Shown: positions 6,312 through 56,460 of the stretch, one piece after another
How the letters are laid out: each line of letters starts with the position of its first letter
How positions within the stretch are numbered: position 1 is the stretch's first letter
DNA from: Methanorbis furvi
GTDB taxonomy: Archaea > Halobacteriota > Methanomicrobia > Methanomicrobiales > Methanocorpusculaceae
Length of the DNA: 64,000 bases
Assembly (NCBI RefSeq): GCF_032714615.1
Contig: NZ_JAWDKA010000003.1
Location: 62,001 to 126,000, forward strand
Direction: 5' to 3'
Translations under genes and position numbers: made by a program
Notes under the pieces: generated by a model
What the model was told of the DNA's origin: nothing
Database searches by the model: none
What the model saw: the letters and a program-made list of their open reading frames with translations, nothing else

Positions 6312-6344
6312 TTTTCAATGACGCAATCAAAAACGAATAACTGT

Positions 6345-6417
6345 GCCCAAGTAGTGTAGTGGCCTATCATGATGCCCTGTCACGGCATCGACTCGGATTC
6401 GAATTCCGACTTGGGCG
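6345..6417 (+). tRNA. tRNA-Asp(GUC), copy 1
   Basis: GCCCAAG at 6345-6351 pairs with CTTGGGC at 6410-6416, with discriminator G6417. The anticodon GTC sits in the loop CTGTCAC. CCA is not encoded. The 73-nt gene follows tRNA-Tyr by 33 bases and is identical to the copy at 6462. Confidence 0.95.
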
Positions 6418-6461
6418 TTTAGCGTTTTTGATTGTGAACGGGATGACATGCAGGTGTTTGT

Positions 6462-6534
6462 GCCCAAGTAGTGTAGTGGCCTATCATGATGCCCTGTCAC
6501 GGCATCGACTCGGATTCGAATTCCGACTTGGGCG
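6462..6534 (+). tRNA. tRNA-Asp(GUC), copy 2
   Basis: This gene is identical in all 73 bases to the copy at 6345-6417, with the same anticodon GTC and discriminator G. The short spacer also repeats TTTTTGATTG, which points to a recent tandem duplication. The 196 bases after it hold no recognised feature apart from T-runs that could end transcription. Confidence 0.95.
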
Positions 6535-6730
6535 TAGTTTTTCTTTTTTGGTTGTTTGTGATTTATCGCGAAATAATTTAGTTGCTTTTTTTGAAAAATG
6601 TTATCGGGTAAATGGTGAGTGTGGACGCACGAGATAAAATAAACCGCAGATTCACCACTTATTCGATTACATTTTTTTCAAAAAACAACAACGAAATTTT
6701 TCTACAGCATCCTAAAAAATAAAAATAAAA

Positions 6731-7647: not shown

Positions 7648-7881
7648 TTACAACTCCTGTATTTCTCTGCACACATTAACCAGACGCAGCCACATATTCA
7701 GGGAAGCCCGGAGAGATGAAACATCAAGAGCCTCCACACGAACAGTCACCGAAGACTCATCATGCATGAGACTCACCCGGGACTTTTCACCCGGATCCGA
7801 ACCTGCCTCCGGAACAAGCACCGCATACAGCTTATCTGCATACGAACACTCAAACCGGAACTCAGCTGCGTGCGTCGCCAT
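7648..7881 (-). CDS. KEOPS complex subunit Pcc1
   Basis: This small 77-residue protein fits the Pcc1 subunit of the KEOPS complex, which makes the N6-threonylcarbamoyladenosine of ANN-decoding tRNAs and uses Pcc1 as a dimerisation platform. It shows the usual alternation of beta strands with a final helix of the type SLRASLNMWLRLV. Its ATG (7879-7881) shares one base with the stop of the Brix gene, in a TGATG arrangement. The GTG one codon earlier is less likely. The position between Brix and prefoldin beta supports the call. Confidence 0.8.
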   Translation of the reverse strand: MATHAAEFRFECSYADKLYAVLVPEAGSDPGEKSRVSLMHDESSVTVRVEALDVSSLRASLNMWLRLVNVCREIQEL

Positions 7882-8282
7882 CACACCATCACTTGCAGAA
7901 TATACTGCATCTTCTGGGTCCCGGCAAACACAATCGGACCTGGAGCGTCCGCATCAAACATCACCTGCATATGGGGTGACAAAGCATCATAAAGATCACG
8001 TTCCCGCACCACAAAACCATGATGGAACGGACCCGTCCTCTCGCTTGTCAAAACATTCGTAATCAGCATTGAAAAAACGATCTTTCCGTTTACCGTCAGA
8101 TCAAAAAGCTGACCGCCCCGCTTTGCACCGGACAGAAAAATAACTACCGGGTCTTCGGCATCCATCGTCCGAAGACCTGACTTTCCCCGCTGGACATACG
8201 GGAGATCGAGCGCAAAGGCGATCTCCTTGGCAAGTCTGCGCACATCCGGTGACGGTTTACGCGATGATGTTATGAATGTCAT
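7881..8282 (-). CDS. Brix domain ribosome biogenesis protein
   Basis: The 133-residue protein corresponds to the archaeal single-domain Brix/Imp4-like proteins, implicated in rRNA processing and large-subunit assembly. It begins [20 protein letters not shown], the typical start of that family, and includes the conserved RG-rich strand (KSGLRT). Its ATG overlaps the TGA of rpoP by four bases, and its stop shares a base with the pcc1 start, so translation is tightly coupled across the cluster. Confidence 0.85.
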
Positions 8283-8410
8283 CGGGCTTTCAGTACTTTC
8301 ATTCCGGCACCGCGCGCCTTAAAGAGAATGCGGTGTCCGCAGTAGGGACAACGGACATTTGCGTCAATCTCAACTGTTTGTTTACAGCGGGCGCACTTAT
8401 AACTGACCAT
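8279..8410 (-). CDS. rpoP: DNA-directed RNA polymerase subunit P
   Basis: The gene encodes 43 residues. The sequence [11 protein letters not shown], the second knuckle CPYCG, and the ending in basic residues match archaeal RpoP, the homologue of eukaryotic Rpb12/Rpc10. Cys6, Cys9, Cys23 and Cys26 bind one zinc. The start sits four bases before the L37Ae stop, and the stop overlaps the Brix start. The gene is short and easy to miss, but context and zinc motif make it secure. Confidence 0.93.
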
Positions 8411-12009: not shown

Positions 12010-12164
12010 TTTTGCTTTCACCTCAGGTTCAGCAGTCTTATCATCCGAATATTCTTCGGATATGCTGCCACATTCCTGTGATATACAGCTGCACCATGAC
12101 GGCACAGTGCTGTAAACTGTGTATTATTGGGTGTATGTGCTATAAAATGATGTGGGCGAAAAGG

Positions 12165-12400
12165 GCTTTGACATAAATTCGGTTATTGGGGAACACAGTT
12201 TGGGATTGGTCAGCTCCGCCCACGGAAGACACTGAACACACGGAAATATTGACGGAAAAAGATCACGGAGCAGACGTGAACATCACGGAATCTGAAAACA
12301 ATTATTTCCGTGCTGTTCACGTCTGCTCCGTGATGTTTTTTTTCTGTGAAACTCCGTGTGTTCCGTTTTTCCGTGGGCGACTCGTGGGTGAAGATGCAAA
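12165..12400. repeat. CACGG-family inverted repeat (R2)
   Basis: An imperfect inverted repeat between L15e and moaC. The left arm holds CCCACGGAA and CACGGAGCAGACGTGAACA (about 12264-12282). The right arm holds the complement TGTTCACGTCTGCTCCGTG (about 12313-12331) and ends TTTTTCCGTGGGCGACTC. The left flank (ATAAATTCGGTTATTG, AGTTTGGGATTGGTCAGCTC) recurs at 54062-54115. The rest of the 12010-12428 gap holds the L15e promoter region. Confidence 0.85.
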
Positions 12401-12428
12401 CTCACAGAAACAAAAAAAGAATTTTTAC

Positions 12429-14395: not shown

Positions 14396-14580
14396 GGTGT
14401 TGTCTATTAATTTTTGGCCTCCTTAATGTATGGCCTCCCACGGAAAAACGGATGACACGGAAATATTGACGGAAAAAACATCACGGAGCAGACGTGAACA
14501 TCACAGAAATAATAAAAAATACTTTCGAATTCCGTGTGTTCCGTTTTTCCGTGGGCGGATCACTGATAAAAGTACCAAAC
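14396..14580. repeat. CACGG-family inverted repeat (R3)
   Basis: It contains CCTCCCACGGAAAAACGG (left) and CACGGAGCAGACGTGAACA (about 14482-14500), then the end arm TTCCGTGTGTTCCGTTTTTC with GTGGGCGG. The complementary GTTCACGTCTG arm is missing, so this is a shortened member. It fills most of the gap between nnr and the DHH nuclease gene. The nuclease frame stays open through it by chance. Confidence 0.8.
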
Positions 14581-17584: not shown

Positions 17585-17624
17585 ATTTTTTTTTGAAATT
17601 GTTGAGGTGAGAGATCTCAACTTT

Positions 17625-17910
17625 GGTTTCGTTTGGAGTAACCACGAAATGCACGGAGAACACGGAGCTTCACTGAATGCACGGAGAACGCCTGCGGCGC
17701 CGGAATGCACGGAAGAGCTAAGAAAGAGATATTCTTCGGCTTTATTTTATATGGAGAAAATACTTGAGGACTTCTTCCATCTCCTTTGTTCTTCCGTGCA
17801 TTCCGGCGCCGCAGGCGTTCTCCGTGCATTCAGTGAAGCTCCGTGATGTTTCCGTGCATTCCGTGAAGCTCCGTGATGTTTCCGTGCATTCCGTGGTTAC
17901 TCCAAATAAG
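17625..17910. repeat. CACGG-family inverted repeat (R4) with a tandem repeat
   Basis: The outer arms are TTTGGAGTAACCACG near 17632 and CGTGGTTACTCCAAA near 17894. Inside, GAACGCCTGCGGCGCCGGAA (about 17685) pairs with its complement near 17805. A ~31-bp unit (GCTCCGTGATGTTTCCGTGC plus ATTCCGTGAA) is repeated in tandem near 17835-17890. This occupies nearly all of the 17585-17988 gap. Short frames open on both strands here are artefacts of the repeats. Confidence 0.85.
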
Positions 17911-17988
17911 GAAAAAAACAGTAAAAATCTCAAACGATGAAATTCATCACCGCGGAACTCCTATCGCAAAAAAATAATTCCAAAAAAA

Positions 17989-19239: not shown

Positions 19240-19345
19240 GACCATATGTTTGGTGCGGACGGTATTACCTTTTTTCAACGAACACGCAAAAACACATACA
19301 GTAAAGAGCTCAGCCGCAGAGATATGTAATAACTGAGGAGAAGCA

Positions 19346-22059: not shown

Positions 22060-22285
22060 TTGCTCCGCCCACGGAAAAACGGAACACGCGGAAATATCAC
22101 TGAAAAAATCACGGAGTAGACGTGAACATCACGGAAATGAATTGTTTTCGGATTCAGTGATGTTCACGTTTGATCCGTGATCTTTTTTTCGTGTGCTCCG
22201 TTTTTTCTGTGAAGCAGTGAGCACGACGAAACGGCGTGTGGAAGGCATGCGAGTCGTGGGCGGAGCAGAACGTAATAGACAACAG
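22060..22285. repeat. CACGG-family inverted repeat (R5)
   Basis: Left arm CGCCCACGGAAAAACGGAA and CACGGAGTAGACGTGAACA near 22109-22127. The right arm has TGTTCACGTTTGATCCGTGA near 22162, then GTGCTCCGTTTTTTC, and AAGGCATGCG with GTGGGCGGAGC at the end. It fills the gap between the convergent DUF3089-like gene and purC. Confidence 0.85.
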
Positions 22286-22989: not shown

Positions 22990-23084
22990 GGTAGAGGAGT
23001 GTTGGAAGTATTCGGGTATAACTCTTTCACAATTCTGACTGACCGGGGAACAAATTCACTTTATTTAGGGGTGCTTTTATGGGT

Positions 23085-23376
23085 GCTGTCGATGTTGCCT
23101 ATTAATTCCCGGCCGCCCACGGAAAAGCGGAACAGACGGAAATTTTATGGGAAAACATCACGGAGCAGACGTGAACATCACGGAACCCGAAAACAATGCA
23201 TTTCCGTGATGTTTTTTTCGTAAAATTTCTGTGTGTTCTCGCGAAGTAGTGAGCAGGCCAAAACGACTCCTGAAAGGAGAGTTAAACACGACGTGGCGGC
23301 GTGGGAAAGGCATGCGATCGTGGACGGAGCTACAACGATACGTCAGTTATCAATAAACGAATTTATGGACAAAGCC
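23085..23376. repeat. CACGG-family inverted repeat (R6), with recognisable ends
   Basis: The left flank TGCCTATTAATTCCCGGC resembles the left flank of R3. Then CGCCCACGGAAAAGCGGAAC and CACGGAGCAGACGTGAACA (about 23158-23176) follow. The right end reads CAGTTATCAATAAACGAATT then TATGGACAAAG, the reverse complement of the left flank of R10 (54062). This gives one shared terminus seen in both orientations. Nothing else recognised between purC and 23434. Confidence 0.8.
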
Positions 23377-23433
23377 GGTGCTGTCCGCTATGTCTGTGAC
23401 ATCGAAAAAAAAATCTGGTTCTGTTCGCCGTCT

Positions 23434-23526
23434 TCACGCCATAATCATCGGAATGATGATTATCATGAAGCCGGCAAACATACCAAAAAGAATTATGAGA
23501 ACAAAGATATCTCTGGTAATGTTCAT
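23434..23526 (-). CDS. Candidate 30-residue membrane peptide
   Basis: The ORF MNITRDIFVLIILFGMFAGF is followed by ten further mostly hydrophobic residues, then TGA. Residues 6-29 form one unbroken hydrophobic segment after a short polar start, as in single-span small membrane proteins. GTGATC about eight bases upstream could serve as a ribosome binding site. No homologue is recognised. It lies alone between purC and the adhesin gene, so expression is unproven. Confidence 0.4.
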   Translation of the reverse strand: MNITRDIFVLIILFGMFAGFMIIIIPMIMA

Positions 23527-23619
23527 AGACAGATCACTTCTGTATTTGCGGGATTAGGGGTGGGGGGACAATCAGAATATCTGCCTGATATGAAGTCTGC
23601 GGCTGATCATTTTTGATGT

Positions 23620-23800
23620 CTATCCCGACCGGTAGATTCACCGGTAACGGCCGGCACCATCCGATGTGTGTGTGCTGATTGTGATGAATCGAATGTTTTT
23701 CCGCATATTATTGCGGGAAACATCTGCTTTTACGAATTTAATCGGGTAGGAATTATTACCCGGGTCATCATTGGATGTATCGGATGGTGCCATGTGCCGC
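23620..23800. other. Hairpin-dense intergenic DNA
   Basis: A 13-bp inverted repeat, GGCACCATCCGAT at 23653-23665 and its complement at 23779-23791, encloses smaller hairpins: TTTCCGCA/TGCGGGAAA near 23697-23720 and CGGGTA/TACCCG near 23743-23762. Another, ACCGGTAGATTCACCGGT, lies just left of it. It may be a structured transcript or an unrecognised element; no gene was seen. Confidence 0.4.
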
Positions 23801-23911
23801 CGGTGCAGCAAACAGCTGATTTTTGGTGGAAATCTGATTGAGTGAGGTCGAATGATGAGATAAACATAGTTTATCAGTATGTTCATTCACCGCATTGTGA
23901 AGAAGAAAGGG

Positions 23912-26900
23912 TTATACCCTCCTTCTTACGAGCAGGCAGGCAGCAAGAAGCCCTGCAAACAATCCTGCCAGAGATGCGGGTGCCTGGGTCAGCGTAGGTG
24001 CTGCTGTTGCACCGCTATTGCTTGAAATGGTCTGCGAATCCGAGTTCGCAGACTGCGTCTGATCATCTGCAACTGTTGGTACAGCAGTTGCTGCTGCGGT
24101 TTTCGCAGTGCCGGAGGAGGCGGTCGGCTGCGGCGTGGACTTCTCAACGATTGTTGCGCCTCCGCGTTCGTAGACGATCGCAAACGGTGAGAAACTGCTG
24201 GTGGAGGCAACATATGTTGCTGCGCCGCGTTCTTCACCGAGGTAGAAGGTCGGGAGGTTTACCCACTGACCATTTGTATAATGGCGGAGAACGACATCGT
24301 TCACTGTTAATCCCTGATCTCTCAGGAGGGCTATCGGAACGCTGAACTCTATCTGCGCAAAGCCCTGAAACTCTGGAACAGTGATATTGCAGACAGTGTA
24401 GCTGTCCAGAGGTGCTGTAACTCCAGACGGAGCGGTGTTGAGAATAACGGTGCCGTATGTTCCTTTGGGGAGGATGATTCTGATAAAACCAAGGAGATTG
24501 TCGAAGGATGCGGCGCCGGTATCATCAATATATGCGATGATCGTGTCACTGTATTTACTATCAGAGGAGTCTACGGAGGGCCGGAACGTCGGAACAGGGG
24601 TAGGGAGTATATTTTTGAAGTTTGCCGTCACAGTGACGTCATTATCAGGCATGATGAAGGTGGTAGTTTCGGATTCATTATTCCCGAAGGTACCTCCCAT
24701 ACTGCTCGTCCAGTTGACAAACTCTTTGTCGGGCTGAGGGGTAGCGCTGATGCTGACGGAACGCCCGGAAGGGTAGGAACCGGTGCCGCTGCCATTGATT
24801 ACAGTGAGAGAGTAATCGGTTGGAGAGATATCTTTGAACGTTGCCGTGACGGTAGCGTCATTATCAGGCATGATGAAGGTGGTAGTTTCGGATTCATTGT
24901 TACCGAAGGTACCTCCCATACTGCTTGTCCAGTTGACAAACTCTTTGCCAGACTGAGGGGTAGCGCTGATGCTGACGGAACGCCCGGAAGGGTAGGAACC
25001 GGTGCCGCTGCCATTGATTACAGTGAGAGAGTAGTCGGAGTTGATAATGACGATACGCAACTCTGGCGGAGAAGATACATCAGAATATTTCAGCGCTATC
25101 CCTTTCAAATCCGGCGACAGAGTAAAGTAGTCTTCGGACTCAGCTGTTGCACCAGTAAACAGCTGCACAATTTTGGCACCCTCGGTCTGATTTTGGGGAG
25201 TGATGTTTTGGACTACCGGTTTATTATCGCTAGGAAGGAATCCGACTTTGATAAATGTGTTGGCAGCGATGTAGGTCGTGTTTGGCCCTATGTTCGAAGC
25301 ACTCGAAATCCAAAATTTGGGGTTAGATGAACTAGACAGATACACTTCGCTGCCATTCATCGTTGCACTGTTGTCGGAGATCTCGCCACCATTCATATTG
25401 AAAGTAGTACCGTCAACAACGTAGATACCACCGCCATTCGTCGCGATGTTGCCGGAGATGGTGGCGGTATCACACATACTGAACGAGTTGCTGTCAAGGT
25501 AGACGCCGCCGCCTTTATCAGTAGCAGTGTTGCCGGTGATCGTGCCGCCAAACATAGTGAAACAGCCGTAAGTGTAGACGCCACCGCCTTTACCAGTAGC
25601 AGTGTTGCCGGTGATCGTGCCGCCCTTCATATCGAAAATCTTGTTGTAACCAACACCAAGAATGACACCACCGCCATATGTAGCAGTATTGTTGGTGATT
25701 GTGCCACCATTCATAACGAAAACACCATTAACGTAGACGCCGCCGCCGCCATAGAACGAGCTCGCAATCATCGCGTTGTTGTCGGAGATTGAGCCACTAT
25801 TCATAGTAAAAGTACCCATAGTGGAAGTACTGCTGTAGATGTAGACGCCACCACCGCTGCCACCTATGGCGGTATTGTTGGAGATTGTACTGTCATTCAT
25901 AACGAAAACACCGTTAACGAAGACGCCGCCACCGTCAGTAGCAGTGTTGTCGGAGATAGTGCAACTATTCATAGTAACATTCGCTCCCTTGACGCCGCCG
26001 CCAGATGTACCACTGTTGCCGGAGATAGTGCAGTTATTCACGATGACATTGCTGCCACAACTGAGTCCGGTACCACTGTTGCCGGAGATAGTGCAGTTAT
26101 TCACGATGGCATTGCTGCCACAACTGAGTCCGAGACCACTGTTGCCGGAGATAGTGCAGTTATTCACGATGGTATTACCGCTACAACTGAGTCCAGCGGC
26201 ATTGTTGTCGGAGATAGTGCAGTTATTCACGATGATATGAGTGCCGGTAAAGTAGATGGCATTGCTGCCGTAATTGTCTGAAATAATGCTGTCATTCATG
26301 GTGAGAATGCCGCCATTCTGGACGTAGACACCGCCGCTGTCCTTAGCAGTGTTGTCGGTGATCGTGCCACCACTCATAGTGAAATTACCGCTAGCAACGT
26401 AGACGCCGCCACCGTTAGCAGTAGCAGTGTTACCGGTGATCGTGCCACCACTCATAGTGAAATTACCGCTAGCAACGTAGACGCCGCCACCGTTAGCAGT
26501 AGCAGTGTTACCGGTGATCGTGCCACCACTCATAGTGAAATTACCGCTAGCAACGTAGACGCCGCCGCCACTATAGGTAGTTTTGCTAGTACCACTCGCA
26601 TTAGCTTTATTACCGGTGATCGTGCAGTTTCTCATCGTGAAATTGCCACCATCAACGTAGACGCCGGCACCATTAGTGGAAACTGCAAGATTATATCCAT
26701 CGAGAGTGAGGATTCCAGAATCATTTCCAGTGAGTGTCAGATTACCTCCTGAGCTGATTTTGAAGATGGAATTTTTATATGCAGAGTAACGGATGAGACT
26801 GCGGTCTGTGCCATCGGTAGTGATAGTGACATCAGAATTGATGGTGAGCACCGCAGTGAGAGAAATATTCTCGCAGATCACGATGACGGGGTCCTTATTA

Positions 26901-27067
26901 GCAGTAATCGCAGACTTCAGTTCGGAAAAATTTGTGACATATGTATCCGCTGCCGCCGGTCCTGCGAGCAGTGCACCTGCGATCAACATAGCTACAAAGA
27001 TCAACAGCAGCCGATGTATCCAACATCTGTACGATACTTTATCCTGAGAATTATCATTCAATGACAT
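23912..27067 (-). CDS. Surface adhesin-like protein with parallel beta-helix and membrane-anchor tail
   Basis: This 1051-residue predicted exported protein has a signal peptide (residues 1-41, hydrophobic core LLLIFVAMLIAGALLAG, cleavage near AAA). A long right-handed beta-helix region (about 60-640) is built of GGGVYV...MSGGTITGNTA units. Two nearly identical 73-residue repeat domains follow (DNA period 219 bp; INGSGTGSYPSGRSVSISAT). Then comes a PGF-pre-PGF-like domain (about 880-960), a Thr/Ser/Ala-rich stalk and a final membrane helix with RRR. The start at 27067 rather than 27112 puts the signal peptide near the N-terminus. A role in attachment is inferred. Confidence 0.88.
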   Translation of the reverse strand: MSLNDNSQDKVSYRCWIHRLLLIFVAMLIAGALLAGPAAADTYVTNFSELKSAITANKDPVIVICENISLTAVLTINSDVTITTDGTDRSLIRYSAYKNSIFKISSGGNLTLTGNDSGILTLDGYNLAVSTNGAGVYVDGGNFTMRNCTITGNKANASGTSKTTYSGGGVYVASGNFTMSGGTITGNTATANGGGVYVASGNFTMSGGTITGNTATANGGGVYVASGNFTMSGGTITDNTAKDSGGVYVQNGGILTMNDSIISDNYGSNAIYFTGTHIIVNNCTISDNNAAGLSCSGNTIVNNCTISGNSGLGLSCGSNAIVNNCTISGNSGTGLSCGSNVIVNNCTISGNSGTSGGGVKGANVTMNSCTISDNTATDGGGVFVNGVFVMNDSTISNNTAIGGSGGGVYIYSSTSTMGTFTMNSGSISDNNAMIASSFYGGGGVYVNGVFVMNGGTITNNTATYGGGVILGVGYNKIFDMKGGTITGNTATGKGGGVYTYGCFTMFGGTITGNTATDKGGGVYLDSNSFSMCDTATISGNIATNGGGIYVVDGTTFNMNGGEISDNSATMNGSEVYLSSSSNPKFWISSASNIGPNTTYIAANTFIKVGFLPSDNKPVVQNITPQNQTEGAKIVQLFTGATAESEDYFTLSPDLKGIALKYSDVSSPPELRIVIINSDYSLTVINGSGTGSYPSGRSVSISATPQSGKEFVNWTSSMGGTFGNNESETTTFIMPDNDATVTATFKDISPTDYSLTVINGSGTGSYPSGRSVSISATPQPDKEFVNWTSSMGGTFGNNESETTTFIMPDNDVTVTANFKNILPTPVPTFRPSVDSSDSKYSDTIIAYIDDTGAASFDNLLGFIRIILPKGTYGTVILNTAPSGVTAPLDSYTVCNITVPEFQGFAQIEFSVPIALLRDQGLTVNDVVLRHYTNGQWVNLPTFYLGEERGAATYVASTSSFSPFAIVYERGGATIVEKSTPQPTASSGTAKTAAATAVPTVADDQTQSANSDSQTISSNSGATAAPTLTQAPASLAGLFAGLLAACLLVRRRV
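26363..26596. repeat. Tandem 78-bp repeats inside the adhesin gene
   Basis: Copies begin at 26363, 26441 and 26519. They are identical over about 70 bases and encode three 26-residue beta-helix rungs (GGGVYVASGNFTMSGGTITG plus NTATAN). The near-identity at third codon positions means recent duplication or gene conversion, and copy number could change between strains. Confidence 0.85.
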
Positions 27068-27120
27068 ACACACACCACATATATTTGGTCGGACAAACAA
27101 TCGCACAGACACTTTTATTC

Positions 27121-27190
27121 AATGAGTGGAGATTTTTTTATCCTATCAGGATAGTATTATGATCGATTCATCCTATTAAATCTACTCATT
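27121..27190. promoter_or_regulatory. Inverted repeat upstream of the adhesin gene
   Basis: AATGAGTGGAGATTT (27121-27135) faces AAATCTACTCATT (27178-27190), with a small palindrome TATCCTATCAGGATA near the centre (27140-27154). It lies directly upstream of the adhesin promoter on the minus strand. It could be an operator or form an RNA hairpin. Confidence 0.45.
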
Positions 27191-27592
27191 CTGTTTTTTA
27201 AATCGAAATACAAGTGAAATACTGGCTTAGTTTTGAAATTTGTGCGTGTCAGTATCCTACCAATTTTATTCAATTTTTGCAAGTTGCCCTCTGACATGCG
27301 CAAGGTTTTCGCCTCATAATTTTGATGTTTGTCGTGAAATTATGGTTAATATTTTTCGTGAGATTGCGTCCTCTCCTGAGAGGATTCAATACATCCAAAA
27401 ACAGGTTTCAAAATAGTGTGCGCGTTCACACTAACCGGCATGACAATACAAACATACTCCCCACACCATTATACATATAATATTATATAAAAATTAACAT
27501 ACATCAACGAAATCCCCCATACATACCTTTCGAAGATCCGGGATTTTGCCAACACCGCTCACCGGACGCTGTTTTCCCCCATTTTTCGGATA

Positions 27593-27603
27593 CCTATATA
27601 TAC
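27593..27603 (+). promoter_or_regulatory. TATA box for the candidate RNA
   Basis: CCTATATATAC has the form of a strong archaeal TATA box. Initiation about 25 bases downstream would start RNA near 27622, just before the structured region. The 400 bases to its left, up to the adhesin, are AT-rich, with another TATA-like stretch near 27479 but no ORF. Confidence 0.5.
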
Positions 27604-27621
27604 TACAAAAGACCACGTTCG

Positions 27622-27815
27622 AACAGCCAATAAATACCAAAGGTATTTTGCGGCGAACACCACCGAAGGGAGGTGACAGAGCTGCGCCAAGCCTCGGGGC
27701 TTACAACGCGCATCAGGAACCCAGGAGAAAGATTACAAATACCCTCGGGCGAAACCGGAGATGTCTGAATCGTTTCAGCCGTCAAAACAGAAACCAATGC
27801 AGACATTAGTTATTT
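27622..27815 (+). ncRNA. Candidate structured RNA with mutually exclusive hairpins
   Basis: In an AT-rich gap of over 1 kb this stretch is clearly GC-richer and dense in pairing. GGTATTT (27642-27648) can pair with AAATACC on its left (27632-27638) or on its right (27737-27743), as in a switch. The right pairing encloses GCGGC/GCTGC (27650/27681) with CACC/GGTG inside, and AAGCC/GGCTT (27689/27698). A further helix ATGTCTG/CAGACAT (27761/27800) follows. No Rfam family was recognised. Reading frames on either strand do not look like proteins. Confidence 0.5.
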
Positions 27816-28157
27816 TCGCCGTCACAGATGATTAGCTTATCGGCGGTCATCCTTTCAGTATTGCCGTTGGTCATACATCTGAAGTATATCATATGTCAGA
27901 TATCAACGACGGAGTTTCTCAGATACTGATGCACAAAAGTTCCGGCCACACTCATCCACCTGATGATGAATGAGTATTCCACTACTCTTGTGTACTATAT
28001 TTGTTTTTCTTTGTATAAGAATATACTTCGATGGTTGTTATTGGACAGAGCGCAAAAAAGGCGTTTTCGAAAAAAATGTGGATATTTTTTCACGAGGGTG
28101 TCTAACCGCGCAGAAACAACTGACATATGATATATGATGTATATCTCCAGAGACATC

Positions 28158-28694
28158 ATGACAGAACTAATTAATTACGTGAGAAAAACACTTTACGCAG
28201 TCCTTACCGACAAAGAGTACTGCACATTCGGCGAACTCATTCACCGAATGGGATTTGCCAACAAAACCGCTTATCTTACCTCGGTCATCCAGCACAGCCT
28301 TTACGGATACCATGCCAGGCTCTCCATACCCGCAGGAGAACTGGACCCTGATGCAGGGGCATGGATACAGTACCGGAAACGAATGATGCAGGATGAGGAC
28401 AGACTTCGTCAGAACTATTTTGATGTGCTGACCGATCTTGCATTTCCAGTGATCGCAACACGCGGTGGTCAGCGTGCGTTTCATCTGCTGGAACAGGAGA
28501 TAACAGACGCGATCGCTGACCGTGCCGGGATCGTTCCGACAGGAGATCAGATGCGGTACTGGATGCAGGTGTATGAGACGATCTTCGCCGAACAGCTGGC
28601 AGAGTACCGGACAAACCTCAACTATGAGGCGAGGATTGCAGAGGAGCGCGATCGGATGCAGGAGAGTATGAGTGCAGAGGTCGTCGATGAGTGA
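28158..28694 (+). CDS. Hypothetical protein, accessory gene 1
   Basis: A 178-residue, mostly helical, charged protein of unrecognised family. Segments such as YCTFGELIHRMGFANKTAYL (about 22-41) could form a helix-turn-helix, but this is weak. The C-terminal 40 residues are Glu/Arg-rich and may be coiled coil. The ATG at 28158 and a codon-24-bases-earlier start at 28134 are both possible, and neither has a Shine-Dalgarno. It lies 340 bases after the candidate RNA and heads a run of four small unknown genes. Confidence 0.6.
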   Translation: MTELINYVRKTLYAVLTDKEYCTFGELIHRMGFANKTAYLTSVIQHSLYGYHARLSIPAGELDPDAGAWIQYRKRMMQDEDRLRQNYFDVLTDLAFPVIATRGGQRAFHLLEQEITDAIADRAGIVPTGDQMRYWMQVYETIFAEQLAEYRTNLNYEARIAEERDRMQESMSAEVVDE

Positions 28695-28816
28695 CTTCCC
28701 GAAGGGAAGGAGCGGAGCATGGAACGAAGTGACATGCGACTGTGACTCCCCGAAGGGGAGGAACGACTCCTCGTTATCTCTTACTCTTCGCAAAACCGGT
28801 GAAGCGGAGGTAACTA

Positions 28817-29089
28817 TTGACTGAAAGTTCAGGATACTTTGGCAGTACCTACTGTTGCCCTGCTTGCGGCTCCTCTTTTTCTTTAATTCTTCGTGAAATC
28901 ACCGGCACCGGCATTGTCGACGGAGCGCCCGTTCTTCGCTGCCCGGCATGTCATGCTGATACCGCAATCCGTGTCAGCCAGTCGGAGATGCGAACGATTA
29001 CGACGTATGTTTTAAGCAGAACAGAGGCAAAGAAGCTGATTCAGTCACGCATACAGGAGAAAAGAAATCCTGTTAAGGGAGGCATATGA
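28817..29089 (+). CDS. Small double-knuckle zinc-ribbon protein, accessory gene 2
   Basis: The 90-residue protein has CPAC-type knuckles, CCPAC near residue 13-17 and CPAC near 41-44, so it probably binds one zinc. The start is a TTG at 28817, selected by a strong Shine-Dalgarno GGAGGT seven bases upstream. The tail is basic and would suit nucleic-acid contact. No family recognised. Confidence 0.6.
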   Translation: MTESSGYFGSTYCCPACGSSFSLILREITGTGIVDGAPVLRCPACHADTAIRVSQSEMRTITTYVLSRTEAKKLIQSRIQEKRNPVKGGI

Positions 29090-29152
29090 CAGAATCATGC
29101 AGAAGAAGTATCTTGAAAACAGACACAAATTTTCACAAAAACAGGACTCCCC

Positions 29153-29671
29153 ATGACGTATACCCCTTTTAACACCGAACATTTTCTCACCGCAACCCTT
29201 CCGCGGATTCATCCGCGCCCCAAAGATGCGTTTGAGGCAGCACTGCACAGCCGCGACCTTGCGTACGCGTTTGAAGGTTTCCACTTCGGATTTCTTGAAC
29301 AGTATCATACAGATATCGAGATGATTCGCGCAGAAAACTGCGAAAGCGTGGAGTACCGGATTTTCTGGCCGACGAAGACGGTCTACGAAGTAAACGTAGA
29401 GAAGCTGAGACTTGACCGGCCGGAGATTCATGAGAAGATTGTGCATCTGCGAAGCTCGGATGCGGAGAAGTTCCTCGGCCGCGGGTATTTGTACAGCTGT
29501 GCAAAGAGTGTCGCAGGCGACCGGGTGGTGCCGTACGAACGGGTGAATCTTCAGGATCTCAGGAAGCATCTTGCGCCTGAGGAGATGACAGCGTATGTTG
29601 TTGCAAAGGAACGCGTGGCAGGCCCTGAGATCATCACTGCGGCGGAGGCGGAAGTATATGGTCTGGCGTGA
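29153..29671 (+). CDS. Hypothetical protein, accessory gene 3
   Basis: A 172-residue soluble protein of unrecognised family. It is rich in aromatic and charged residues with no clear motif. The ATG at 29153 is preceded by CAGGACT. The gene overlaps the next one by 14 bases, so the two are translated together. Confidence 0.6.
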   Translation: MTYTPFNTEHFLTATLPRIHPRPKDAFEAALHSRDLAYAFEGFHFGFLEQYHTDIEMIRAENCESVEYRIFWPTKTVYEVNVEKLRLDRPEIHEKIVHLRSSDAEKFLGRGYLYSCAKSVAGDRVVPYERVNLQDLRKHLAPEEMTAYVVAKERVAGPEIITAAEAEVYGLA

Positions 29672-29855
29672 TCATCCTGATCTTTGTGATCGAAAGGTTT
29701 TGAAAAGGCAGTTATTTTCTGGTATGACGGTAGAGGAGATTGCTCTCCGGAACGGTTGTACGCGCGGGACGGTGCGGGCGGCTATGCACCATCACCGGCT
29801 GCGAAGACCGTTAGTGCAGGTGTCGGAGAAAGAGCGGGAGATCCTCCGGCTCTAA
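29658..29855 (+). CDS. Small helix-turn-helix protein, accessory gene 4
   Basis: 65 residues. The central part MTVEEIALRNGCTRGTVRAA (about 23-42) is a good helix-turn-helix, as in small sigma-like or phage-type DNA-binding proteins. The ATG at 29658 lies inside the end of accessory gene 3. It may regulate the cluster or belong to a decayed virus or plasmid; neither is shown. Confidence 0.6.
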   Translation: MVWRDHPDLCDRKVLKRQLFSGMTVEEIALRNGCTRGTVRAAMHHHRLRRPLVQVSEKEREILRL

Positions 29856-29902
29856 TTTTTTTTGGTGTGACGTAAGTGTACTGTTGGAGTGGCGAGTGGG
29901 CA

Positions 29903-30325
29903 TGACGAGGAAAAACAGCCACAGATTCACACAGATTCCAAATTTGCCAATCGCTGTTATCTTGCGTTCGGTCGGGACTCCGGCTAATCGCCTCCGTCCG
30001 TTTCGACCTCACTGGATAACAGCTGGCAAATTTTTCGGTTTCCTGTTGAAGTGATCTGTGGTTTTGCTTGAAAAAACCAGTTACAGTATCACACAAATTA
30101 TATTTTTTAGATTTTTTTAAATGTATTGCAGGAGAGAGTGGAGACATAATGGGAAAAAAACCACACACACCACTCCAACAAAAAACCGAAAAATTTGCCA
30201 GTCATTATCCAGTGAGGTCGAAAAGGACGCAGGCGATTAGCCGGAGTCCCGACCGAACGCAAGATAATGACGATTGGCAAATTTGGAATCTGTGTGAATC
30301 TGTGGCGGTTTTTTCCTCGTAATTC
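29903..30325. repeat. Two ~160-bp palindromic units in inverted orientation
   Basis: The left unit (about 29903-30062) and the right unit (about 30161-30325) are reverse complements at more than 85% by eye, including CCACAGATTCACACAGATTC and TCGGGACTCCGGCTAATCGC. Each unit has its own internal inverted repeat, AAATTTGCCA with GATAACAGC-TGGCAAATTT. About 100 AT-rich bases separate them. They fill the 29856-30374 gap and bear no obvious resemblance to the CACGG family. Confidence 0.8.
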
Positions 30326-30374
30326 CCACTAACCACTTCAACAGTACACATTTAACAGAAAAGAGAAGAAAGAA

Positions 30375-30806
30375 TCAGCACATACCAGAGTATCGTTTAT
30401 CCGTATAGATCAAACGTCGCCACTCAAGGCGTCGTGGATTTCCAAAATTGAACAGCAGACCAACAGGAATCCCCGTTGCCTTCAGATAATTCACCAGTTG
30501 TGCCTCATCCTCTTTCGTGAGCTCTTTCTTTGCTTTCAGTTCCAGAATGATATTCCCAAAACACATAAGGTCCGCCTTATAGTAACTTGGCAGCTTAACC
30601 TCTTTGTAAAAAATATTCACCAGTTTTTCCTGCTCATACGAAAAATCCCGTGCGGCAAATTCAACCCCCAGCGCATCGCGATACACATTCTCCAAAAAAC
30701 CAGACCCCAGAATATTATACACCTCCATTGCAGCACCAATTATTTTATGTGTATCATCAGCAAGCAGCCCGCAATAACAGTCATCATCACGCATAATTGA
30801 TGACAT
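30375..30806 (-). CDS. GxxExxY protein (PD-(D/E)xK nuclease-like)
   Basis: A 143-residue member of the GxxExxY family: GFLENVY at residues 36-42 gives the name. The nuclease-like core Asp79...Glu89-Leu-Lys91 (KADL, LELKAKK) fits the PD-(D/E)xK fold. Its function is not established. Such genes often lie in variable regions and next to repeats, as here. The ATG at 30806 is preferred over the TTG at 30815. The minus-strand orientation separates it from the four accessory genes. Confidence 0.85.
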   Translation of the reverse strand: MSSIMRDDDCYCGLLADDTHKIIGAAMEVYNILGSGFLENVYRDALGVEFAARDFSYEQEKLVNIFYKEVKLPSYYKADLMCFGNIILELKAKKELTKEDEAQLVNYLKATGIPVGLLFNFGNPRRLEWRRLIYTDKRYSGMC

Positions 30807-30893
30807 TGATCCCAATCATCATAAATACATCACCACATCAAAATTTGCATAAATATCTGCGAGGCAGAGCACGGGCTGCGCCCATGCAAAGCC

Positions 30894-31370
30894 TTACTTA
30901 TGATACGGCTCGTTTCTGAGAATACGAAAACCCCGGTAAACCTGTTCAAAAAGAATCAGCCGGATCATCGTGTGCGTAAACGTGAGCCGGGAAAACGACA
31001 CTTTCCGCTCAGCCGCCGCAAGCACCGCAGGCGACAGGCCCAGGGGACCGCCGATGATAAAACAGATATTTCTGCCGCCGAGCTCCGCAGTGCCAAACAG
31101 CGACGACAACTCCTCGCTTGAGATCAGCGGCGCGTACGGATCAAGCACAACAGTCATGAAACCGTCCCGCACACTCTCCAGAATCTTTTCCCCCTCCCGC
31201 TCCTTGACAAGCATCTCAGAAGATTTTGACGCACCGTCAGGAACTTTTACCTCGGAAAGCTCGGTCACAAAAACAGATGCATAGGGTTTCAGCCGTTTGG
31301 AAAACTCGGCGATTCCCTCATTCAGATACGCATCCTTAATCCTGCCGACACACAGGATCTGAATCTGCAT
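30894..31370 (-). CDS. rlmH: 23S rRNA (pseudouridine-N3)-methyltransferase RlmH
   Basis: 158 residues with the SPOUT fold marks: MQIQILCVGRIKDAYLNEGI at the start, FIIGGPLG (about 103-110) in the SAM-binding knot, and the ending TFTHTMIRLILFEQVYRGFRI. RlmH methylates the pseudouridine in helix 69 of 23S rRNA. It is mainly bacterial and present in some methanogens. It lies five bases after the TPR gene on the same strand. Confidence 0.93.
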   Translation of the reverse strand: MQIQILCVGRIKDAYLNEGIAEFSKRLKPYASVFVTELSEVKVPDGASKSSEMLVKEREGEKILESVRDGFMTVVLDPYAPLISSEELSSLFGTAELGGRNICFIIGGPLGLSPAVLAAAERKVSFSRLTFTHTMIRLILFEQVYRGFRILRNEPYHK

Positions 31371-34606: not shown

Positions 34607-34689
34607 ATGCGTATTCCTCAGATTAAGAGTATAGTATGTTTGGTCTTGCATACTATACCATGTTTCTGCCGGGCATTACATTTTCAATC

Positions 34690-34985
34690 CTGAGTCGCCC
34701 ACGGAACACACTGACCACACGGAAATTTCACAGAAAAAGATCACGGGGCAGACGTGAACAGCACGGAAATAAATTATTTTCAATAATAGTTACTTGGTGC
34801 GATTTTTGAAACACGAAACAATACAAAACACACGAATGATTTAGCTCACAAAACTTCTATTTCAAATTCCGTGATGTTCACGTCTGCTCCGTGATCTTTT
34901 TCTGTGATATTCAGCGTGTTCCCGCGAAGCGGTAAGCAGGCCGCAGGCATGCGTTCCGCTTTTCCGTGGGCGACTCATCGATGAA
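34690..34985. repeat. CACGG-family inverted repeat (R7) with enlarged loop
   Basis: Left arm: CGCCCACGGAACACACTGAC and CACGGGGCAGACGTGAACA (about 34743-34761). Right arm: GATGTTCACGTCTGCTCCGT near 34872, then GAAGCGGTAAGCAGGCCGCA near 34926 and TTTTCCGTGGGCGACTC. Between the arms about 85 AT-rich bases (34779-34862) are not seen in other members. The gap up to nifB (34607-35077) holds nothing else but the nifB promoter. Confidence 0.85.
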
Positions 34986-35077
34986 AATACAAAGTCGCCC
35001 AAAAAACAGACACCCCCTGCATCATCGGGTGCCTTTTCACTTGGAATTATATAGGACCGTCTCCCATAGGATAAGTT

Positions 35078-39020: not shown

Positions 39021-39064
39021 ATTACAGAGAGTACTATTTCTGATTGATAAATAGGTTTGCATCA

Positions 39065-39215
39065 TTGATCACGAGCCGCCCACGCCACCCACGGAAAAGC
39101 GGAGCACACGGAAAAACATCACGGAGCAGACGAGAACATCACAGAAGTGAATTGTTTTTGGATTCCGTGAAGTTCCGTGTGTTCAGTGTTTATCGTGGGC
39201 TACGTGTGAATGAAT
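39065..39215. repeat. CACGG-family inverted repeat (R8)
   Basis: GCCCACGGAAAAGCGGAGC, CATCACGGAGCAGACGAGAA (about 39118-39137) and the right end TTCCGTGTGTTCAGTGTTTA with GTGGGC. The right TTCACGTCTG arm is missing, so this member is truncated like R3. It lies between the marker 14 and DUF1624 genes. Confidence 0.8.
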
Positions 39216-42099: not shown

Positions 42100-42200
42100 C
42101 ACGTAAAGTCCTATTCTGTGAAATTTCGTGTGTTCCTGCGAAGCGGTAAGCAGGTCGCAGGCATGCGTTTCGATTTTCCGTGGGCTGCTCAGACATAAAG
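42100..42200. repeat. CACGG-family half repeat (R9)
   Basis: Only the right half is present: TGTGAAATTTCGTGTGTTCC, then GAAGCGGTAAGCAGGTCGCA, GGCATGCG and TTTTCCGTGGGCTGCTC. No left arm can be seen before it, so it is either a remnant or a single-sided member. Confidence 0.7.
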
Positions 42201-48520: not shown

Positions 48521-48637
48521 CTGATTTACTGATGGGAAGAGCGACAATATAAATTCACTCTCAGAATCAGTGCTCTGCCTGAATTTATTTTATACCCATA
48601 GAAGTTGCGCGGTGGCAAATGTGGTCGCGCTTGGAGC

Positions 48638-48676
48638 AACCACGTGACGCAGGCCGCAGGCATGCGTCACGTGGTT
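48638..48676. repeat. Perfect 14-bp hairpin derived from the CACGG family
   Basis: AACCACGTGACGCA (48638-48651) and its exact complement (48663-48676) enclose GGCCGCAGGCA, the same loop words found in R7, R9 and R10 (GCAGGCCGCAGGCATGCG). It may be a minimal member. It lies between the convergent membrane protein and DUF362 genes, in the 246-base gap. Confidence 0.75.
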
Positions 48677-48766
48677 ATTTCAAGCAGAGACATCCATCTA
48701 ACAATCACACCGAGTAACTTTTAACCCGATAAAAAAATAGCGATCGAAAAAAGGATCTTTGAAGGA

Positions 48767-53568: not shown

Positions 53569-54057
53569 ATGAATCCTGAAGACACCGTATTTACCCTGCT
53601 CGACAGCAGAGGCTGTCCCTACCAGACAACCAGCCATCCGGTGGCATACACCTATGAGGACATGGTAAACCTCGGAGTCACCGAAAAGGGCGAGGTCTGC
53701 AAAAATCTTTTTTTACGCGACGCCAAAGGAAGACGACACTTCCTTGTCGTCATGTGCGGCAAAAAATCCGCTGACCTCAAAACACTCGCAGAAAAAATCG
53801 GATCAACTGCGTTAAGCTTTGCATCAGCAGAACGCCTGACAAAATACCTGAACCTCTCCCGCGGAGAAGTCACACCGTTCGGCATACTCAACGACACAGA
53901 GTCAGCAGTCGAAGTGGTGTTTGATGCAGACCTGAAGAAAACTCCTTGCATCGGTATTCATCCAAACACGAACACGATTACTGTCTGGATTACGTACGAA
54001 GATGTCAGAAAAATCGTCAGCGAACACGGCAACAAAGTTATTGAAATTGAGATATGA
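53569..54057 (+). CDS. ProX/YbaK-type aminoacyl-tRNA editing protein
   Basis: The 162-residue protein resembles free-standing homologues of the prolyl-tRNA synthetase editing domain, which deacylate misacylated tRNA such as Ala-tRNA(Pro). Visible: TSHPVAYTYEDM near 22-33, KNLFLRDAKG near 45-54 with a Lys typical of catalysis, and GEVTPFGILND near 98-108. The preferred substrate is not evident. It is co-transcribed with cofE. Confidence 0.88.
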   Translation: MNPEDTVFTLLDSRGCPYQTTSHPVAYTYEDMVNLGVTEKGEVCKNLFLRDAKGRRHFLVVMCGKKSADLKTLAEKIGSTALSFASAERLTKYLNLSRGEVTPFGILNDTESAVEVVFDADLKKTPCIGIHPNTNTITVWITYEDVRKIVSEHGNKVIEIEI

Positions 54058-54061
54058 ATCG

Positions 54062-54325
54062 ACTTTGCCCATAAATTCGTTTATTGATGAACTGAGTTTG
54101 GGATTGATCAGCTCCGCCCACGGAAAAGCAGAACACGCGGAGCTTCACGGAAAAACAACACGGAGCAGACGTGAACTACACGGAAATGAGTTGTTTTCGG
54201 ATTCAGTGATGTTCACGTCTGCTCCGTGATTTTTTTTATTTCTGTGTGCTCCGCTTTTCCCGCGTAGCGGTAAGCAGGCCGAAGGCATGCGTCACGTGGG
54301 AGGCAGGAGTTAATGAACAACACCA
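54062..54325. repeat. CACGG-family inverted repeat (R10)
   Basis: The left flank ATAAATTCGTTTATTGATGA and AGTTTGGGATTGATCAGCTC match R2. Arms: CACGGAGCAGACGTGAAC near 54159 and GATGTTCACGTCTGCTCCGT near 54208. The right part is GCGGTAAGCAGGCCGAAGGC and ATGCGTCACGTGGGAGG. It lies between the editing protein and Sec61 beta and fills most of the 54058-54398 gap. Confidence 0.85.
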
Positions 54326-54398
54326 TCTGAATCGAAAAAAATAGATGCTGTCTTAAGACAGCACAATATCCTGCAGGTTTTTTCTCGCTAAACCTGTA

Positions 54399-55636: not shown

Positions 55637-55675
55637 CCCACGGAAAAACGAACATCACGATATTTGATATGATAC

Positions 55676-56133
55676 CACAAAAAGAATGAGTAAGTTTCGT
55701 CTTGGAAATTTTTCAAAAAAAAAATTGTTGCAGAAATATTTTCAGAGTGTCGCTGAAATAGAAAACACGAATTACACGAATCGCATACCTTCGACATGCT
55801 TGGCTCGTCTACCGGCTCACCCACGACATAATTTTGAACTTCTTCCCATCTCCCCCCTCACTAATCGCTCGTCAGGGTATAGGAGCTAATAAGATACAAC
55901 GAAAAACTGTATTTGATCGACGAGCAATTAACGAGGAAAAAGTATCTTATACATTTCAAATACTGGCCAGTAGGCGAGCACATCAGGCCATGAAATGGCA
56001 TGTGATTCGTGTAATTCGTGTTTTTTCTCATCATCCAATTGATTCTTCCAAATAACTGCGGGAGCAGATGTTGTCATATGAAAATGTTTCATCACGCTAT
56101 TTCAGGGAGAAAAATTCACTAAATTTTTTTGTG
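55676..56133. mobile_element. MITE-like element, copy B (458 bp, inverted)
   Basis: This is the reverse-complement homologue of 526-988, with matching ends (CACAAAAAGAATGAGT at 55676 and ACTAAATTTTTTTGTG ending at 56133). The blocks CGTCTTGGAAATTTTTC, GAGTGTCGCTGAAAT, ATTACACGAATCGCA, ACGACATAATTTTGAACTTC and GATCGACGAGCAATTA are common to both. CACGG-family sequence (GCCCACGGAAAAACG) stands directly left of it at about 55635. No ORF is conserved between copies. Confidence 0.7.
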
Positions 56134-56344: not shown

Positions 56345-56460
56345 AAATCATTTCCATGATGCTCACGTTTGTTCCGTGATGTTTTTTCTGTTAAATTCGG
56401 TGTGTTCCTGCGAAGCGGTAAGCAGGCCGTAGGCATGCGTTTAGTGGGCGGAGCGACTCA
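56345..56460. repeat. CACGG-family right half (R11)
   Basis: GATGCTCACGTTTGTTCCGT, then GTGTTCCTGCGAAGCGGTAA, GCAGGCCGTAGGCATGCG and GTGGGCGGAGCGACTC. With the left fragment at 55635-55660 it may be one member split by element B. A simple GGGAGG tandem run sits at about 56260-56278. No gene was seen in 55637-56457. Confidence 0.75.

Follow-up and report, generated by a model that had tools for sequence, protein, structure and literature searches.

Palindromic intergenic repeats of Methanorbis furvi as probable MITEs of an IS5-family element

Related elements and the anatomy of the repeats

IS903 is marked by its end sequence and by a 9-bp duplication, and the repeats that form the main subject of this work (family 1) are IS903-like in both end sequence and duplication length. 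A search with the IS903-like profile PF13737 (DDE_Tnp_1_5) gave nothing above its cut-off in any genome of the genus; this is a weak test, as the control genomes also yielded no match. More generally, family 1 and its probable partner resemble the IS5-family insertion sequences and their MITEs in that their ends start GGCTTTG or GGCGTTGC, a 9-bp duplication is present, and the transposase of the partner is placed best under the model NF033579. They differ from them in that the partner is 4.7 kb long with cargo genes, has several copies of TTGCACCTTTATTC in each end, and encodes a transposase falling just under the NF033579 cut-off.

Little is known about archaeal MITEs. The SM1-SM4 families of Sulfolobus solfataricus contain 25-44 copies per family (PMC10969869). 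Family 1 is like them in being short and non-coding, with terminal inverted repeats, and in being, as we infer, moved in trans by an insertion sequence (PMC10969869), but it has more copies (an estimated >140 vs. 25-44) and a long central palindrome. The ERIC elements of enterobacteria are likewise palindromes located between genes, and their number ranges from few in some species to hundreds in others, with as many as 711 in Photorhabdus (PMC10969869). Family 1 shares these traits but, unlike ERIC, shows a target-site duplication and has a probable partner transposase. In a paper on the genus, transposases are mentioned once and repeats of this kind not at all (PMC10035134), and the literature searched yielded no description of MITEs from this genus. 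That family 1, and a second family described below, are new MITE families of an already known kind is well supported. They are notable for their copy number, for a species-limited burst (well over a hundred copies, about half as many in the sister species and almost none in most of the genus) and for the sharing of modules. They also carry a warning that a long conserved hairpin between the genes of a compact archaeal genome is not necessarily a functional RNA.

The original prediction had assigned a series of intergenic gaps in the window (the whole stretch of 64,000 nucleotides that was analysed) to one dispersed family. The repeats are real, as the core CACGGAGCAGACGTGAACA has 12 matches in this 64-kb window (≤3 mismatches) vs. 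0.01 expected from dinucleotide shuffles. However, two families had been mixed, the gaps at 352-1060 and 17625-17910 being without the core, and the gaps at 42100-42200 and 56345-56460 hold only half copies. Genome-wide (1.85 Mb in 26 contigs), the core gave 283 matches (≤2 mismatches; 142 forward, 141 reverse), and the reversed core, used as a control, gave none. More than 140 core-bearing copies are estimated in the 1.85 Mb, a total that derives from core matches, with copies sampled as individual stretches; their density in the window is about 8 per 64 kb.

The consensus of family 1 was derived from 102 sampled copies belonging to the source genome, its sister species (G019) and, in a few cases, other relatives. 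It consists of the arm GCTCCGCCCACGGAAAAACGGAACACACGGAAATTTCACAGAAAAAACATCACGGAGCAGACGTGAACATCACGGAA, a loop and the reverse complement of the arm, and outside the arms there is a long end, A (GGCTTTGCCCATAAATTCGTTTATTGG...), together with a short one of type B (GGTGTTGCCTATTAATTCCTGCC) or C (GGCTTTGCACCTTTATTCATGAG). A full copy reads: long A end, inverted-repeat arm, loop, second arm, short B or C end. Its typical length is about 230-330 bp, and as in a MITE no transposase gene is present inside. Both termini start GGYKTTGC; such ends were recognised on both sides in 23 of 100 copies (≤5 mismatches), and many others are truncated. The two cores of a pair lie 68-251 nt apart in 70 of 78 pairs. 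In 36 of the 78 copies they span 68-83 nt, most of these having one loop, ATGAATTGTTTTCGGAT, and the larger spans occur where other sequence occupies the loop. As the order A end, loop, B end was constant in the compared copies that keep both of these ends and the standard loop, family 1 represents a polar unit that has been inserted in both orientations.

Target-site duplications and the copies in the window

For the 23 two-ended copies of family 1, the identity of the two flanks at a length of 9 bp was 0.56 vs. 0.29 for shuffled pairs, and at every other tested length, from 4 to 13 bp, it was 0.28-0.39; in reading these values it should be noted that the consensus ends derive from these very copies and that two of them had initially raised the suspicion of a 9-bp length. 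About a third of these copies have clear duplications, the flanks matching at 9/9 positions in six and at 8/9 in two. Perfect 9-bp duplications are also present in other species (L031 in G004 and L034 in G001).

The family 1 copies, target-site duplications and family 2 elements of the window given below are on the forward (+) strand unless the reverse strand is indicated. The copy in the gap 12165-12400 extends from 12164 to 12401, with a long-type end GGCTTTGACATAAATTCGG at 12164-12182 and a short end reaching to GATGCAAAC at 12401. Its inverted-repeat arms lie between about 12217 and about 12377, and it folds as a single long hairpin (z = -13.4). No matching 9-bp flanks were found for this copy, whose ends have probably been recombined, and at its site the sister species has a different family 1 copy. 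Another copy (14396-14561) has a short B end GGTGTTGTCTATTAATTTTTGG at 14396-14417 and a shortened right arm. At the site of a third (22062-22266), the gap measures 6-18 bp in G008, G001, G021, G005, and G004, and a family 2 element is found there in G019. The copy at 23091-23376 is on the reverse strand and retains both ends, viz. a B end GATGTTGCCTATTAATTC (23091-23108) and an A end GAATTTATGGACAAAGCC (23359-23376); it is flanked by a perfect 9-bp duplication GGTGCTGTC at 23082-23090 and 23377-23385. Half copies are located at 42111-42190 (right half only) and, on the reverse strand, at 56360-56454.

Three other copies provide filled sites that are empty in G019, whose genes are about 90% identical to those of the source genome. 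These are a copy with type C ends (34671-34996), a truncated copy (39064-39212) and a copy at 54061-54324 with an A end GACTTTGCCCATAAATTC and a B end GTTAATGAACAACACC, the last of which lies between target-site duplications ATATGAATC (54052-54060) and ATCTGAATC (54325-54333) that match at 8/9 positions. The reverse case, in which G019 is filled and the window is empty, is seen at window position 19280. The examined copies fall in gaps between genes that align with G019, and the original claim that the repeats lie only between genes was therefore upheld for them.

The core is largely confined to two species. Among 25 genomes of the genus there were 283 matches in the source genome, 118 in G019 and 0-2 in each of the 23 others, and the core was absent from 16 genomes elsewhere in the order. 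A looser CACGGA-array pattern gave 331 matches in the source genome and 255 in G019; none of the remaining genomes among the 232 of the class had more than 15. The exact end pattern matched in only five of the 232, all of them of this genus, and in a scan of 84,980 species genomes only scattered single matches were seen outside the genus.

A probable partner transposon and a second family

As originally stated, no transposases are visible in the window, but a PF01609 search of the genomes of the genus revealed two transposase loci in the source genome. One of these (L220; G000:C9, 6006-10683) is a 4678-bp transposon encoding a 401-aa transposase. Its ends, GGCGTTGCACCTTTAATC and GGCGTTGCACCTTTATTC, are of type C and match those of family 1, and it is flanked by a perfect 9-bp duplication CTTCCGACG. 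NF033579, an IS5-family model, is by far the best curated model for this transposase (132.2 bits; cut-off 140), and its PF01609 score of 61.6 bits is above the cut-off. Besides the transposase, it has genes for a DUF2080 protein and a ribbon-helix-helix protein. Uncharacterised cargo ORFs are also present, one of which (7720-8382) resembles a GIY-YIG nuclease by eye and has no Pfam match.

Homologues of this transposase in G002, G018, and G023 are followed, 70-105 bp past the stop codon, by an end of the same kind. The G002 homologue, 35% identical to the L220 transposase, scores 139.7 bits against NF033579 (cut-off 140), and the end adjoining that of G023, GGCGTTGCCCATAAACTC, is of the A type. 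In the draft assembly of G019, the PF01609 search found no such transposase. The L220 element is probably the autonomous partner of family 1 in the same genome. Since it has type C ends whereas many of the MITEs here have A and B ends, cross-mobilisation is something that we infer, the L220 transposase or a close relative having moved them. As a separate observation, two loci in other genomes (L132, G001:C236, 2016-2212; L133, G002:C60, 1571-2051) share GGCGTTGCCCATAAATTC ends and contain several internal TTGCCYATAAATTC-like repeats, possibly repeated transposase-binding sites.

Other sources of family 1 were considered and rejected. For IS1, IS256, and IS1595, PF03400 and PF00872 were found in none of the 25 genomes of the genus; PF12762 was found among these in G016 only, where its copies are without family 1 ends; and the ends of two further loci, L119 and L123, are unrelated.

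The gaps 352-1060 and 17625-17910 contain GGAGTAACCACGG arms inside TAGGAGTTACGCGGTG-type termini and belong to a second MITE family (family 2), whose ends are TAGGAGTTACGCGGTG and whose duplication is about 5 bp. Its members in the window are an element with a larger insert at 304-1102 (GGAGTAACCACGG arms between 360 and 1042, right end CACACCGCATAACTCCT at 1086-1102, left end degraded), one at 17600-17963 (right end CACCGCGGAACTCCTA at 17948-17963, left end degraded) and one at 48600-48722 that has both ends, AGAAGTTGCGCGGTG and CACACCGAGTAACTTTT. The likely source of family 2 is L123 (G000:C4, 1200-2304), a decayed IS701-type transposase locus of the source genome with ends of the family 2 kind (ATAGGACTTACGCGGTG) and the 5-bp flank TTTTA on both sides, which matches IS701-family models at 212 bits, under their cut-off of 250.

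In several family 1 copies (L029, L060, L067, L091) the loop contains a family 2 element, and a 43-nt arm segment is common to the two families with 98% identity. This shared segment indicates that elements with differing ends have swapped bodies or arms. It is a tentative idea, which we consider possible rather than likely, that the CACGGA-rich palindromic arm is a module passing between unrelated transposons (IS5-type 9-bp and IS701-type ~5-bp MITEs), in which case the body may capture new ends or may itself be favoured, e.g., as a binding site or as a place where later insertions can land safely. Two further repeats were noted: a tandem AAAAATTATCACGAG repeat in the loop of a family 1 copy (L064, at the end of G000:C2) that reaches the contig end, and a ACACGAATTACACGAATC-rich sequence of about 450 nt, a further dispersed element, that occurs in the window twice in opposite orientation (545-997 and 55667-56112; 83-93% identical).

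Alternative explanations and other features of the window

Based upon the above results, we regard family 1, with a probability of about 0.9, as a MITE, or non-autonomous DNA transposon, belonging to an IS5-family element. This reading rests upon the ends, the 9-bp duplication, the empty and filled sites, the lack of covariation described below, the species-limited expansion and the presence in the same genome of an IS5-family transposon with matching ends and duplication length. The original prediction had proposed testing the repeats as a selected structure by counting covariation in the stems. Such a structure could be an RNA or DNA hairpin (a terminator, UTR stabiliser or regulatory RNA) kept at gene ends, and the very stable fold (z -13.4), the intergenic location and the T-runs past the stem accord with it. 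However, over 35 base pairs in 22 oriented copies there were 0 double-sided changes vs. 3.8 expected by shuffling, and RNAalifold likewise found no compensatory changes in the stems. The arms of one copy are also no more alike than arms from different copies (0.785 vs. 0.779 ± 0.004), and an Rfam search returned tRNAs only, the repeats being without a match. Further, there is no strong bias to gene 3' ends, the neighbouring gene pairs being tandem in 42 cases, convergent in 28 and divergent in 25, which, by rough ORF calling, is about the spread seen at gaps of ≥20 bp in relatives. Close relatives lack copies at orthologous sites. The refuting outcome that the original prediction itself had named was thereby observed: the copies vary without paired changes, and the core is missing or almost missing from 23 of the 25 genomes of the genus and wholly missing from the 16 elsewhere in the order. 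A selected structure was thus not borne out and is very unlikely, and these same observations support a mobile element.

Palindromic pairs of inverted units with a variable loop, intergenic location and high copy number are also what would be expected of REP/REPIN elements, for which the mobilising enzyme is a REP-associated tyrosine (Y1) transposase. To our knowledge, Y1 transposases do not produce 9-bp target-site duplications or separate terminal inverted repeats, both of which are present here, and there is an IS5-family partner whose ends are of the same kind; this origin is extremely unlikely. An ERIC-like palindrome, spreading by an unknown and possibly recombinational process without a defined transposase, could account for the many copies without both ends or duplications and for the different end modules carried by orthologous copies at one site, but where both ends are kept clear 9-bp duplications are seen, including those of L031 and L034 in other species, and to this reading too we assign an exceedingly low probability. 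Recombination probably reshapes old copies and does not create them.

According to the MITE reading, a DDE transposase acting in trans would bind the family 1 ends and mobilise the element, which would insert at a staggered 9-bp cut whose fill-in creates the duplication. Copies would then build up between genes, as those inserted within genes are probably removed by selection, and older copies may decay, become truncated, swap end modules by recombination and receive further MITE insertions in their loops. With empty alleles and a probable source transposon available, it can be tested directly when the burst took place and how it affected genes.

Some other features of the window were also observed. 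A 7.8-kb stretch (23067-30894), which is absent at the same place in G019, contains a beta-helix/InlB-type repeat surface protein (23912-27112). A separate inverted repeat at 29911-30313 has 150-nt arms that are 91% complementary and a loop of 103 nt. Lastly, two identical tandem tRNA-Asp genes, 117 bp apart, are located at 6342-6535.
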